Position numbers and translations under genes: made by a program
Source: a virus
IMG/VR virus record: IMGVR_UViG_3300005264_000340
Span: 1 to 24,188 of that record
Length of the DNA: 24,188 nucleotides
Reading direction: 5' to 3' (one strand)
Shown here: piece after piece, positions 15,544-20,381 of the stretch
Layout: every line of letters begins with the position of its first letter
Position numbering within the stretch: position 1 is the stretch's first letter
Notes under the pieces: generated by a model
What the model saw: only the letters and a program-made list of their open reading frames with translations
What the model was told of the DNA's origin: nothing
The model's database searches: none

Positions 15544-17115
15544 TTATTGAATTATTACACACTCTGTTGTTAATATTAAATTAGCTATTGATGAAGCATT
15601 TTTTAATGCACTTACTGTTACTTTTGTTGGATCTATTATTCCTGTGTTAAAAAACCTTTCGAAATTATCATTATCTGAATTATAACCATAATCATAATTT
15701 GTATTTTTTAATACGGTCTCCATAATTTTTTCATATGATAAATCAGCATTGATAAGTATTTGTTTAAAAGGTTTCCTTATAGCTTCTTTAATAATCATTA
15801 CACCTTTTTTTTCAATATCATTTTTACATTTTATTTTGTCTATCATTAAAGAAGCACGTAATAAAGCTATTCCTCCTCCAGGAAGTATACCATCATCTAT
15901 TGCAGCACGTACAGCATTTAAAGCATCTTCTACCCTATCTTTGCGTTCTTTCATTTCTGCTTTAGTTTCACCACCTATTTTAAATATAGCTATACCTTTA
16001 GTTAGTTTTGCTAATCTTTCGTGAAGTTTTTCTTTAATACGTTTATTTGTTGTGTTTTTTATTTGATTTTTTATTTCTTCTGCACGTTCTTTAATATCAG
16101 AAGGATTCCCATTTCCTTTTCTTATTATTATTGATTGTTCTGATACTATTATTTTTTCAGCACTACCACACACTTCATGACCTATACTATCTAAAGATAC
16201 ACGTTGTTCTCTTGTTATATATTTGCCACCAGTAAATATTGCTAAATCTGTCATTAAATTATGTCTTTGCTCATCGAAACCTGGAGCTTTTATTGCTACT
16301 ATAGGTAATCCTTTTGATTTATTAAGTATTAAAGAGCTTAAAGCATCATGTTCCACATCGTCAGCTATAATAAGTAAAGGTCTGTTTTTTTCTACAGCAT
16401 CTTGCATTATATTTATAACTTCATTATGTTTTTGTATTTTTTTATCTACTATAAGTATTAATGGATTTTCATATATTGCTTGTTTTTTTTCTCTATCAGT
16501 AATAAATATAGGAGAAATATATCCTCTATCAAATTTCATTCCATCAACAATTTCAATTTCTGTTTTATTATTTTTAGATTCTTCAAGGTCTATAACTCCA
16601 TCAAATCCTATATTTTTGACTCCTTTAGCTATAAATTTACCTATTTTATTATCACCATTAGCTGAGATAGTAGCTATATGTTCTAATTGTTTTATTTCTT
16701 TTGTTTTTTTAGATTTCTTTTTAAGAATTTCTAAAGTTAATTCAATAGCTTTATTTATTCCACTTTTTATATCTATAGGATTGTCTCCAGACATTATACA
16801 TTCTGTACCTAATTTTATTATTTCTTCTGCTAACACGACAGATGTTGTAGTTCCGTCACCAACAATATCATTTGTCTGATTAGCAACGTCATACATCATT
16901 TGAGTTCCTAAATCTTTGAATTTATTATTTTTATCATTAACATAATCTGCTACAGTAGCACCATCTTTTGTTACTTGATAAGAGCCGTTTTCTTTTTTAA
17001 TTACAACAAATTTACCTTTAGGTCCCATTGTTGATTTTACTGCTTCAGCTAATTCGTTTACTCCTTCTATAAGGGAGTTGCGAGCATCATCTTTAAATTT
17101 AATATTTTTTTCCAT
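15544..17115 (-). CDS. groEL: Phage-encoded chaperonin GroEL (Cpn60), 523 aa
   Basis: A full-length group I chaperonin: GPKGK near residue 31, the ATP-site loop DGTTTS with catalytic-type Asp near 87, an apical domain with [10 protein letters not shown] and the [10 protein letters not shown] and [12 protein letters not shown] segments, [11 protein letters not shown] (second catalytic Asp) and GGGIALL in the equatorial domain. Hydrophobic positions of the substrate/GroES groove are largely kept (I/L/M/F). It stops at TTECVIIQ, so the Gly-Gly-Met tail of cellular GroEL is missing. It should form a folding ring in the host cytoplasm. First gene of a three-gene operon, divergent from terminase; a GroES-like gene lies 2.8 kb away. 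Confidence 0.97.
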
Positions 17116-17140
17116 CTACATTTACATTTATTAATTACGA

Positions 17141-17178
17141 CAAATATAATCATTTTAAATTAAATTTTAATATATTTG
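17141..17178. promoter_or_regulatory. Divergent promoter pair between groEL and terL
   Basis: Two mirror TATATTTG boxes, at 17141-17148 (minus) and 17171-17178 (plus), match the Bacteroidota -7 box; neither has TTTG at -33. Both transcripts begin near the inverted CCATCTACATT / AATGTAGATGG at 17111-17121 and 17190-17200, which hold the two start codons. Confidence 0.55.
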
Positions 17179-17197
17179 TATTTTAATGTTAATGTAG

Positions 17198-17887
17198 ATG
17201 GGCAGAAAGATTTTAACTATAAATGATTATCTTGAACCAATAGAAATTCCTTCAAAATTATTATCAGGTAGAGGTATTATTGATGCACCAATGTATTCTC
17301 CGTTGGTTAGAGAATGGTATGAAGAACAGATTGATTATGTTCTGAATGGTATAACTATTAATGGTAAGTTTTGGAATCCGTTAATATATCATTTCCTTAA
17401 TTTTTATTATTTTCCTGTTCAGTATATAGATAGAAAAACTGGAGAAGTTAAGTCTTATGATGAACCAGGAATGCCTCTTTTCTCACGTATAGATGAATAT
17501 ATATTTGATAAGATGTGGGAAGCTATGAATAGCTCTCAACATATAGCTTTATTGGGCTCTAGAGGGTTGGGCAAATCCTATATCGCTACATCTATAATGA
17601 ATAGGAGATATAATTTTTTTCCTAAAAGTGATATAATTGTTTCTGCGAGTATGAAAACTCATGTTGATACTGCATGGGATAAAGTTATAGAAACATTAGG
17701 AGCTTTTGAAAAGAAGCATCCAGCGTTAAAACAAAAAAGGATAACTAATTCGAATACTAAATTAAAAAGTGGTGAAGAAGTTGATACTGATTATGGAAAA
17801 GAAGAAAGAGGTTATTTATGTACTTATGAAAAAATTCTTTATGGTAAACTTTATGATGCTTATGGGTACAGGAGGTTCTATATCTAA
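17198..17887 (+). CDS. terL: Terminase large subunit, N-terminal part (frame-broken)
   Basis: This is the ATPase half of the DNA-packaging motor. The Walker A region reads ALLGSRGLGKSYIATSIMNR at about residues 117-136, followed by DIIVSASMKTHVDTAW. The expected next segment, with the RG(K/R)R helix and the acidic Walker B (typically FEEAG in crAss-type TerL), is absent; instead the frame runs through GYLCTYEKILYGKLYDAYGY and stops. The nuclease half continues in the next frame. So the gene shows both a frame change and a loss of roughly 60-70 residues relative to relatives as I remember them. The start lies in AATGTAGATG. Confidence 0.82.
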   Translation: MGRKILTINDYLEPIEIPSKLLSGRGIIDAPMYSPLVREWYEEQIDYVLNGITINGKFWNPLIYHFLNFYYFPVQYIDRKTGEVKSYDEPGMPLFSRIDEYIFDKMWEAMNSSQHIALLGSRGLGKSYIATSIMNRRYNFFPKSDIIVSASMKTHVDTAWDKVIETLGAFEKKHPALKQKRITNSNTKLKSGEEVDTDYGKEERGYLCTYEKILYGKLYDAYGYRRFYI

Positions 17888-19143: not shown

Positions 19144-19494
19144 ATGAATAGATTTTATAAAATATTAAAGATTTGCGTAGTATTATTGATTATTGTATCT
19201 ATATTAATTATTATTTATGATACGAAATATGATACAAATAGAGAAGATGAATTAAATAAAGCTATTGCTGAAAAAGATTCTATTATTGCTGTAAATAAAA
19301 AAGATATGTTATTAAGAGACTCTTTAATAAAACAATATAAAGATTCAATGATTTTTTATGTGTCGATGATTGATGCATATGATAAAGAACAAGGTAAACA
19401 AAATAAAGAAGATTATGAGAAAGGTATTGACGGTATTGTTAATGGTACCATTGATGATAACATTAACTTATGGACAGAAGAAACTATTGATTAA
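19144..19494 (+). CDS. Membrane-anchored coiled-coil protein, i-spanin candidate, 116 aa
   Basis: One N-terminal transmembrane helix (about residues 8-25, ICVVLLIIVSILIIIY) is followed by a charged coiled coil (NREDELNKAIAEKDSIIAVN onward) and an acidic tail. This is the topology of Rz-type inner-membrane spanins. The next gene starts inside it in another frame, as in Rz/Rz1 pairs. No sequence family recognised; the lytic role is inferred from topology and overlap. Confidence 0.68.
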   Translation: MNRFYKILKICVVLLIIVSILIIIYDTKYDTNREDELNKAIAEKDSIIAVNKKDMLLRDSLIKQYKDSMIFYVSMIDAYDKEQGKQNKEDYEKGIDGIVNGTIDDNINLWTEETID

Positions 19495-19861
19495 TAATCC
19501 TGTATCCAATAAAATTATTTTTTATAAAAGAGATACGTTTATTCTTACGGATTATAGAAGTATTATTAATGCTAATAAAAAATTTGTAAAACTTCATTAT
19601 CTTACAAAAGAGAATTTGAGGTTAGATTCTGTAGATAAAATGAGAAGTAAAGCTTTGTTTTATAGTTTAAAAGCTAACAAAGAGTATGTTAAGAAATGTA
19701 AGGATGCTTCTATTATTATTAATAATAGTGAAGATAAATACAATATAATATATGCTGAGAATCAGTGGTTGAATGAACAACTTAAAATAAAGAAAAATGT
19801 AATTCTTTATGGAGGTATTGGTTCTGCTATTTTAATTGTAGGTATATTGTTATTTAAATAA
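19415..19861 (+). CDS. Exported protein with C-terminal membrane helix, 148 aa
   Basis: The ATG at 19415 gives a signal peptide (MRKVLTVLLMVPLMITLTYG then Q); the frame extends further up but that part is poly-lysine nonsense. It overlaps the preceding gene by 80 nt in a different frame. The mature domain is helical and polar (NLRLDSVDKMRSKALFYSLK) and ends in a transmembrane helix (VILYGGIGSAILIVGILLFK). There is no lipobox cysteine, so it is not a classic Rz1 lipoprotein; it might be an unusual spanin partner or another envelope protein. Confidence 0.65.
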   Translation: MRKVLTVLLMVPLMITLTYGQKKLLINNPVSNKIIFYKRDTFILTDYRSIINANKKFVKLHYLTKENLRLDSVDKMRSKALFYSLKANKEYVKKCKDASIIINNSEDKYNIIYAENQWLNEQLKIKKNVILYGGIGSAILIVGILLFK

Positions 19862-19903
19862 AGTTGATTTTAGTAATATTAATATATTAAATGTAGATGT
19901 AGT

Positions 19904-20173
19904 ATGGTAAATAAAGTAGATGTAAAAAGTATTGTACCTAAACAGAGTATGGTGCTTGTTAAGTTAATGAAAATTCCTAATTCTAAAGAAAGAGGTGTTT
20001 TTATGCCTAACAAAAATGATTTTAAACATGATCCGAATAATCCTTTGAATTATTTTGGAAAAGTTATTGCTATTGGACCTGATGTTACTCAGATTAAAAA
20101 AGGTGACTATGTGTTATATAGCATGGCTGCAGATTATATTGTTCTTACAAAAGATGAAAGTATATATTCCTGA
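19904..20173 (+). CDS. GroES-like co-chaperonin domain 1, 89 aa
   Basis: The protein begins MVNKVDVKSIVPKQSMVLVK, with a mobile-loop-like SKERGVFMPN, then FGKVIAIGPDVTQIKKGDYV and LYSMAADYIVL. The order VLVK, G-(V/I)-x-(M/L)-P, GKV-x-A-x-G and K-x-GD-x-V-L-Y is that of GroES/Cpn10 (about 95 residues). The frame ends in KDESIYS just where the next frame carries a second GroES-like domain. It should cap the phage or host GroEL ring. The start follows GTAGATGTAGTATGG. Confidence 0.75.
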   Translation: MVNKVDVKSIVPKQSMVLVKLMKIPNSKERGVFMPNKNDFKHDPNNPLNYFGKVIAIGPDVTQIKKGDYVLYSMAADYIVLTKDESIYS

Positions 20174-20381
20174 TGATGCAGATGTTAATTATGGAACCGA
20201 GAGAGATTTAAGTAAAGGAAAAATTGTAAGGTTAAGTAAAGATGCTAAGAAAGCAGGATATAAAGAAGGGGATATTATTTATTACCCTAAAGATGTAGGT
20301 CTTAGTATTGATGAACTAAAGGGAGTAGGACAATATAGAATTATTAAACCTATGTATATAAAATTTGAATACAGACCTTAA
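20154..20381 (+). CDS. GroES-like domain 2, overlapping frame, 75 aa
   Basis: From the first ATG the protein reads MKVYIPDDADVNYGTERDLS, then KGKIVRLSKDAKKAGYKEGD with IIYYP and VGQYRIIKP. The PDDA, KGK-x-V and G-x-K-x-GD-x-I-x-Y elements are again GroES-like. It overlaps domain 1 by 20 nt in the +1 frame. Removing a single base near 20160-20170 would fuse the two into a tandem protein of about 160 residues, like two-domain Cpn20. Whether it is a separate gene, a recoded fusion or an indel is unclear. Confidence 0.65.
   Translation: MKVYIPDDADVNYGTERDLSKGKIVRLSKDAKKAGYKEGDIIYYPKDVGLSIDELKGVGQYRIIKPMYIKFEYRP

Follow-up and report, generated by a model that had tools for sequence, protein, structure and literature searches.

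A GroEL and a tandem GroES-like cochaperonin around terL of a divergent crAss-like phage: a likely folding system for virion proteins

Introduction

Single-domain GroES-like genes upstream of the large terminase gene (terL) are common in crAss-like phages, GroEL is known from Cellulophaga phage phi14:2 (Crassvirales, Steigviridae), and GroEL together with a GroES-like gene abutting terL is known from Cellulophaga phage phi38:1 (Pervagoviridae), a non-crass phage. Here, we analyze a 24,188 bp stretch of viral DNA, the whole of IMG/VR record IMGVR_UViG_3300005264_000340 (hereafter, the window), which encodes a complete GroEL and, between terL and the portal gene, a GroES-like cochaperonin with two Cpn10 domains. 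New here is a clear tandem-domain lid in this position, combined with a GroEL of the same phage.

The described systems share different parts of this arrangement. In phi14:2, the annotated GroEL (g105) is encoded upstream of terL and lacks the C-terminal Gly-Gly-Met (GGM) tail, but it is 490 amino acids (aa) long, 38% identical to the GroEL of the window, and encoded on the terL strand; the GroES-like candidate of that phage (g096) is single-domain and very weak. phi38:1 also has its own GroEL without a GGM tail (gp005), and its 194-aa GroES-like protein (gp089, annotated as GroES; phrog_13932; positions 2148-2732 of locus L297) is encoded next to terL, followed by the portal gene. However, the terL and portal of phi38:1 have no detectable similarity to those of the window, gp089 lies upstream of terL, and a separate, normal 91-aa Cpn10 (gp007) is encoded near GroEL. 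The second half of gp089 alone is clearly a Cpn10 domain, whereas the first half is weakly GroES-like, so the phage described here may not be alone in having a two-domain lid; this first half is possibly a degenerate second Cpn10 domain. The “putative 10kDa chaperonin” of crAss001 (Gp15) and its equivalents are likewise encoded near terL, but they are single-domain proteins encoded upstream of it, with no phage GroEL detected. T4 gp31 is a phage-encoded protein of the cochaperonin fold (structural match 1g31, a likeness shown at the level of structure), but it has a single domain and its partner is the host GroEL. The textbook tandem lid is chloroplast Cpn20, which consists of tandem Cpn10 domains and forms a tetramer (PMC5904260); unlike the protein studied here, it is a plant protein, and the duplication in the phage looks independent.

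Results

A GroEL and a GroES-like gene on either side of terL

The central genes and sites of the window are as follows.

15544..17115, minus strand: complete GroEL (group I chaperonin, Cpn60), 523 aa (PF00118, phrog_5725, residue alignment)
17116..17197, no strand assigned: divergent promoter region between GroEL and terL, 82 bp, near mirror-symmetric (inverted repeat, 94%)
17171-17178 (plus strand) and 17141-17148 (minus strand): promoter element TATATTTG, each copy followed by a AATGTWAATGTAGATG leader
17198..19133, plus strand: terL, large terminase (phrog_6681 and comparison with the sister contig); broken near 17847
19904..20381, plus strand: GroES-like cochaperonin gene (PF00166 for both domains, structure models); broken near 20159
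20393..22684, plus strand: portal protein, 763 aa (phrog_6547, E = 2.9e-27)

An earlier note on this DNA had described a complete GroEL divergent from terL, and this is what we find: the GroEL open reading frame (ORF; 15544-17115, minus strand) and the start of terL (17198, plus strand) are 82 bp apart. The same note had placed GroES-like domains between terL and portal. The location (19904-20381) is correct, but the gene is interrupted: its coding sequence is divided between different frames, in ORFs 19904-20173 and 20055-20381, which overlap. terL is split as well (overlapping ORFs 17198-17887 and 17769-19133). Both genes are intact in a sister contig, IMGVR_UViG_3300033146_004147 (34,845 bp; 98.4-99.5% identity over the aligned segments), the sole find when viral contigs were searched singly with the GroEL, terL, portal, and GroES proteins; there, terL encodes 693 aa, and the cochaperonin is one protein of 206 aa. 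Compared with the sister, the window lacks 142 bp at 20159, where the GroES-like gene is broken, 145 bp at 17847, where terL is broken, and 46 bp at 11248, which breaks the ORF of a 696-aa protein that is intact in the sister. With three such gaps, one of which disrupts an essential gene, assembly errors seem a likelier cause than real deletions. An altered genetic code is unnecessary, as translation table 11 reads the window genes.

GroEL retains the catalytic residues of a group I chaperonin

The GroEL protein matches PF00118 (223.9 bits, E = 4.6e-66) and phrog_5725 (490 bits, E = 1.5e-146). Its residues were checked by alignment to E. coli GroEL, with roles in catalysis, client and GroES binding, and subunit and ring contacts taken from the GroEL literature. 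The protein has the features of a group I chaperonin, namely, a full-length Cpn60 domain with a conserved ATP site and a hydrophobic apical surface. The ATP-site and catalytic residues are retained (T30, G32, P33, K51, D52, G86-T91, D398, G414, G415, and D495), including D87 and the GDGTTT loop, and the apical positions that bind clients and GroES are hydrophobic or aromatic (Y199, I203, F204, I234, M237, L259, I263, and L264). Residues at subunit and ring contacts are changed (E386K, against R197; K105E; E461S; R452K; and D361I). The changes at inter-subunit contacts (E386K, K105E, E461S, and R452K) suggest assembly apart from the host GroEL, and the GroEL cycle may differ as well.

As the earlier note had pointed out, the protein ends in TTECVIIQ, without the GGM tail, a tail of this type being present in 71 of the 78 sampled bacterial GroELs. 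The tail is also absent from the GroELs of phi14:2, phi38:1, and three Vibrio phages, so its loss is recurrent in phage GroELs. The GroEL genes of the window and the sister contig differ at five nucleotides that cause zero amino-acid changes, leaving the proteins 100% identical; small as these numbers are, this fits selection against amino-acid change.

The cochaperonin contains two Cpn10 domains

In the intact 206-aa protein of the sister, two Cpn10 stretches follow each other head to tail in one chain, as in Cpn20-type tandem proteins and not as in GroES, which has a single domain per chain and forms a sevenfold ring. Each half alone scores above the PF00166 cut-off (26.3 and 25.4 bits versus 21.1), and the resemblance between the two halves is weak (27% over 45 aligned residues). 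At the mobile-loop position, which docks onto GroEL, both domains carry a hydrophobic tripeptide (GVFMP and GVYIP); together with the Pfam and fold matches, this identifies a Cpn10 fold with a mobile loop. The full-length AlphaFold model is confident for the first domain alone, and its best matches are Cpn10 structures. The second domain was modeled separately because the alignment of the full-length model did not cover it; it reached a predicted local distance difference test (pLDDT) score of 78, confidence being low in the mobile loop. All of the 27 best structural matches of this domain in the PDB are GroES, Cpn10, or gp31 chains, none of which reaches E = 0.001. A tblastn search of the phage collection with the 206-aa protein gave zero matches, and a literature search found no paper on tandem GroES in phages. 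The one co-chaperonin found in the PDB by sequence, a weak match, is Chaperonin 11 of 7ekq, and chain R of this entry (194 residues) is a weak structural match. The title of the entry itself is CrClpP-S2c; we take it to be a Chlamydomonas structure in which the co-chaperonin Cpn11/20/23 caps ClpP.

GroEL and genes around the capsid gene share a promoter-plus-leader pattern

The TATATTTG sequence fits TAnnTTTG, the -7 element of Bacteroidota promoters. The promoter-plus-leader pattern was found at two sites in the window and at four in the 22 kb sister locus; shuffled sequences contained none. The pattern was defined once the first sites had been seen, so the GroEL and terL sites do not count as independent evidence, but its recurrence at the other two sites does. 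These sites (17596-17636 and 20220-20245 of locus L004) precede a 348-aa gene located directly before the capsid gene and a 347-aa gene located directly after it, respectively. Because the same promoter and leader precede the genes on either side of the capsid gene, GroEL appears to have a promoter type in common with the packaging and head genes and to be tied to head-gene expression. Among all loci fetched by that point, the pattern was confined to this phage, for which it is a candidate specific late promoter. No TAnnTTTG element was found within 90 bp of the GroES gene, which is probably read together with terL.

GroES-like genes, but not GroEL, are widespread among the relatives

We surveyed 90 crAss-like terL loci, the sister included, for GroES-like ORFs (E <= 1e-3), using a profile built partly from the domains of the present phage. 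Such an ORF was detected in 31 other terL loci, in all of them upstream of terL and scored as single-domain. With an independent Pfam profile, 27 of the 36 closest portal relatives scored as carrying a GroES-like gene (E <= 0.05; 10 of these over the curated cut-off). GroEL was detected in 3 of 49 crAss-like records, namely, those of the sister and phi14:2 and a divergent one of 142 kb, and in 0 of the 36 closest portal relatives, some of which are fragments; both counts are lower bounds because many records are fragmentary. The 142 kb crAss-like record L280 (IMGVR_UViG_3300013383_000017) encodes a very divergent GroEL (~30% identical) distant from terL and a single-domain GroES-like protein just upstream of terL.

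These counts bear on two further claims of the earlier note. That a phage-encoded GroEL is uncommon is partly right: it is rare in crAss-like phages, but 256 records of the phage collection match the GroEL (some are visibly mis-filed bacterial DNA), and 36 genomes of a 78-genome group of marine Bacteroidetes phages, which includes phi38:1 and IAS virus, carry the gene (PMC5332604). The proposal of a dedicated pair for folding virion proteins gains from the position of both genes in or beside the packaging module and from the promoter and leader that GroEL has in common with terL and the capsid-flanking genes. Taken alone, the GroES-like gene in the head module is not evidence of such a pair, since a GroES-like gene near terL is also present in most close relatives, in which GroEL was not detected.

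The surroundings of the GroES-like genes in the relatives point to an earlier location, marked by one gene.

6913..7125, plus strand: 70-aa gene, marker of the presumed ancestral GroES slot (22 homologous ORFs in relatives)

In relatives (L005, L299, L328, and others), this gene comes directly or within ~100 bp after the single-domain GroES-like gene. In the window, the gene preceding the 70-aa homologue encodes a matrixin-like protease, with no GroES-like ORF there, and no second or ancestral GroES-like ORF was found elsewhere in the window. The simplest reading is that the GroES gene moved from this slot to its place between terL and portal and that its domain was duplicated; alternatively, a new copy replaced the old one. 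The matrixin-like zinc protease (6279-6899) contains HEFGHFFELGHS and matches PF00413 below the cut-off (E = 2.6e-4).

Origin of the GroEL

The GroEL is at most 47% identical to any sequence found and forms a long branch in the trees (about 2.2 to 3.3 changes per site). In a tree without phi14:2 and the other crAss-like GroEL, a supported clade (99/100) contains all sampled non-Bacteroidota GroELs but not the GroEL of the window; when phi14:2 and phi38:1 are added, the position of the latter shifts. A clade of the window, phi14:2, and phi38:1 GroELs, with long branches, is neither supported nor rejected (P value of the approximately unbiased test, p-AU, 0.44). According to the earlier note, nesting within recent host sequences combined with loss of the interface residues would have pointed to a passenger gene; the trees and the residues show neither. 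For the species sampled, a recent host origin is excluded. None of the best 80 viral-contig GroEL loci has a terL, portal, capsid, or GroES gene of the crAss type within its 8 kb flanks. MT835992, one of the GroEL matches in the phage collection, was rejected as a phage, its genes being those of a bacterial chromosome.

The source phage and other features of the window

Judged by its genes, the window derives from a divergent crAss-like phage, of whose genome it covers a 24 kb fragment. terL and portal match crAss-type families (phrog_6681 and phrog_6547), and the major capsid protein encoded in the sister matches PF23898 (Crass_capsid); window and sister together thus provide the crAss-type terL, portal, and major capsid protein of a member of Crassvirales. 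The closest relatives of the portal protein are 24-27% identical over most of its length, several of them from 100-190 kb records. Two ORFs accompany GroEL.

15356..15562, minus strand: 68-aa ORF overlapping the end of GroEL; no family match
14734..15354, minus strand: 206-aa ORF downstream of GroEL; no family match

The latter is probably on the GroEL transcript, and a terminator-like stem (14693-14664) is present on its strand. In place of positions 12762-14201, the sister has ~115 bp, indicating a recent gain, loss, or swap; this segment holds seven of the eight tRNA genes of the window (12760-13385) and an HNH_3 endonuclease ORF (13715-14197). A glycosyl hydrolase family 25 (muramidase) ORF (7857-8540, minus strand; PF01183, E = 8.5e-35) likely encodes a lysis enzyme; the N-terminal part of the protein resembles a lipoprotein signal.

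Discussion

We consider it moderately probable that this Bacteroidota crAss-like phage encodes a late-expressed chaperonin with its own tandem lid that serves virion proteins. With the active site of GroEL intact, the cochaperonin built of two domains, and the promoter architecture shared, it is likely that virion proteins have a folding system of their own. GroEL would assemble into a ring, driven by ATP, to which unfolded virion proteins bind, the major capsid and portal proteins being the obvious candidate clients, and the tandem cochaperonin would cap this ring. The GroES part would have been inherited from a crAss-like ancestor, in which a single-domain GroES encoded near terL probably works with the host GroEL; the lineage would then have duplicated the Cpn10 domain, placed the gene downstream of terL, ahead of portal, and acquired a GroEL. 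A more far-reaching version, in which the phage GroEL assembles apart from that of the host, takes the two-domain GroES as its cap, and is tuned to capsid or portal folding as a self-contained viral folding cage, is possible and, in our estimate, rather doubtful. If it were true, the lid domains, even in number, would have to fit a sevenfold ring, unless the ring has another size.

Several observations weigh against a virion-dedicated chaperonin. No GroEL was detected in the 36 closest relatives, which nevertheless produce virions (some of their records are fragments); phages of this kind thus have no general need for a GroEL of their own. The second Cpn10 domain is well modeled solely in isolation and the first alone in the full-length model, and in the window itself both terL and the GroES gene are broken.

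The widespread GroES-like genes near terL in relatives without a phage GroEL also raise the possibility that the tandem GroES retunes the cage of the host GroEL for phage clients, in the manner of T4 gp31, with the phage GroEL performing a separate job, such as the lidless holding of aggregation-prone proteins reported for the chaperonin of phage EL. We take this explanation seriously, because those relatives must work in this way if their GroES-like proteins are functional. It also draws on the missing GGM tail and altered ring-contact residues of the phage GroEL and on the chaperonin of phage EL, which prevents aggregation, with no encapsulating state seen and no interaction with E. coli GroES (PMC7185714). 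However, the GroEL of the window is near canonical length and keeps the hydrophobic GroES-docking positions, and the GroES gene lies downstream of terL, whose promoter region is common to GroEL; on balance, we hold this explanation to be unlikely.

GroEL could instead be a passenger, or a general stress or host-takeover gene acting on both phage and host proteins, as its occurrence in few crAss-like records and in varied places in many unrelated phages might suggest (in Flavobacterium phage immuto, for example, GroEL lies beside the DNA polymerase gene). The promoter and leader common to GroEL, terL, and the genes around the capsid gene, the lack of amino-acid changes between strains, and the long divergence with an intact active site make this quite improbable. 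Least probable by far is that the tandem protein serves as a lid for a non-chaperonin partner, for instance, a protease chamber, as on ClpP in 7ekq: the weak sequence match to Chaperonin 11 and the presence of chain R among the structural matches are set against GroEL-type mobile-loop tripeptides in both domains and a GroEL encoded by the same phage.

crAss-like phages rank among the most abundant viruses of the gut. The literature on them that we searched does not discuss the GroES-like gene beside terL. The phage described here, with its likely folding system for virion proteins, ties this conserved terL-adjacent gene to a GroEL that appears to be co-regulated. So far, it is chloroplast Cpn20 that has posed the question of how a lid with two domains per chain matches a ring of sevenfold symmetry; the phage would offer a natural tandem-lid system in which to address it.

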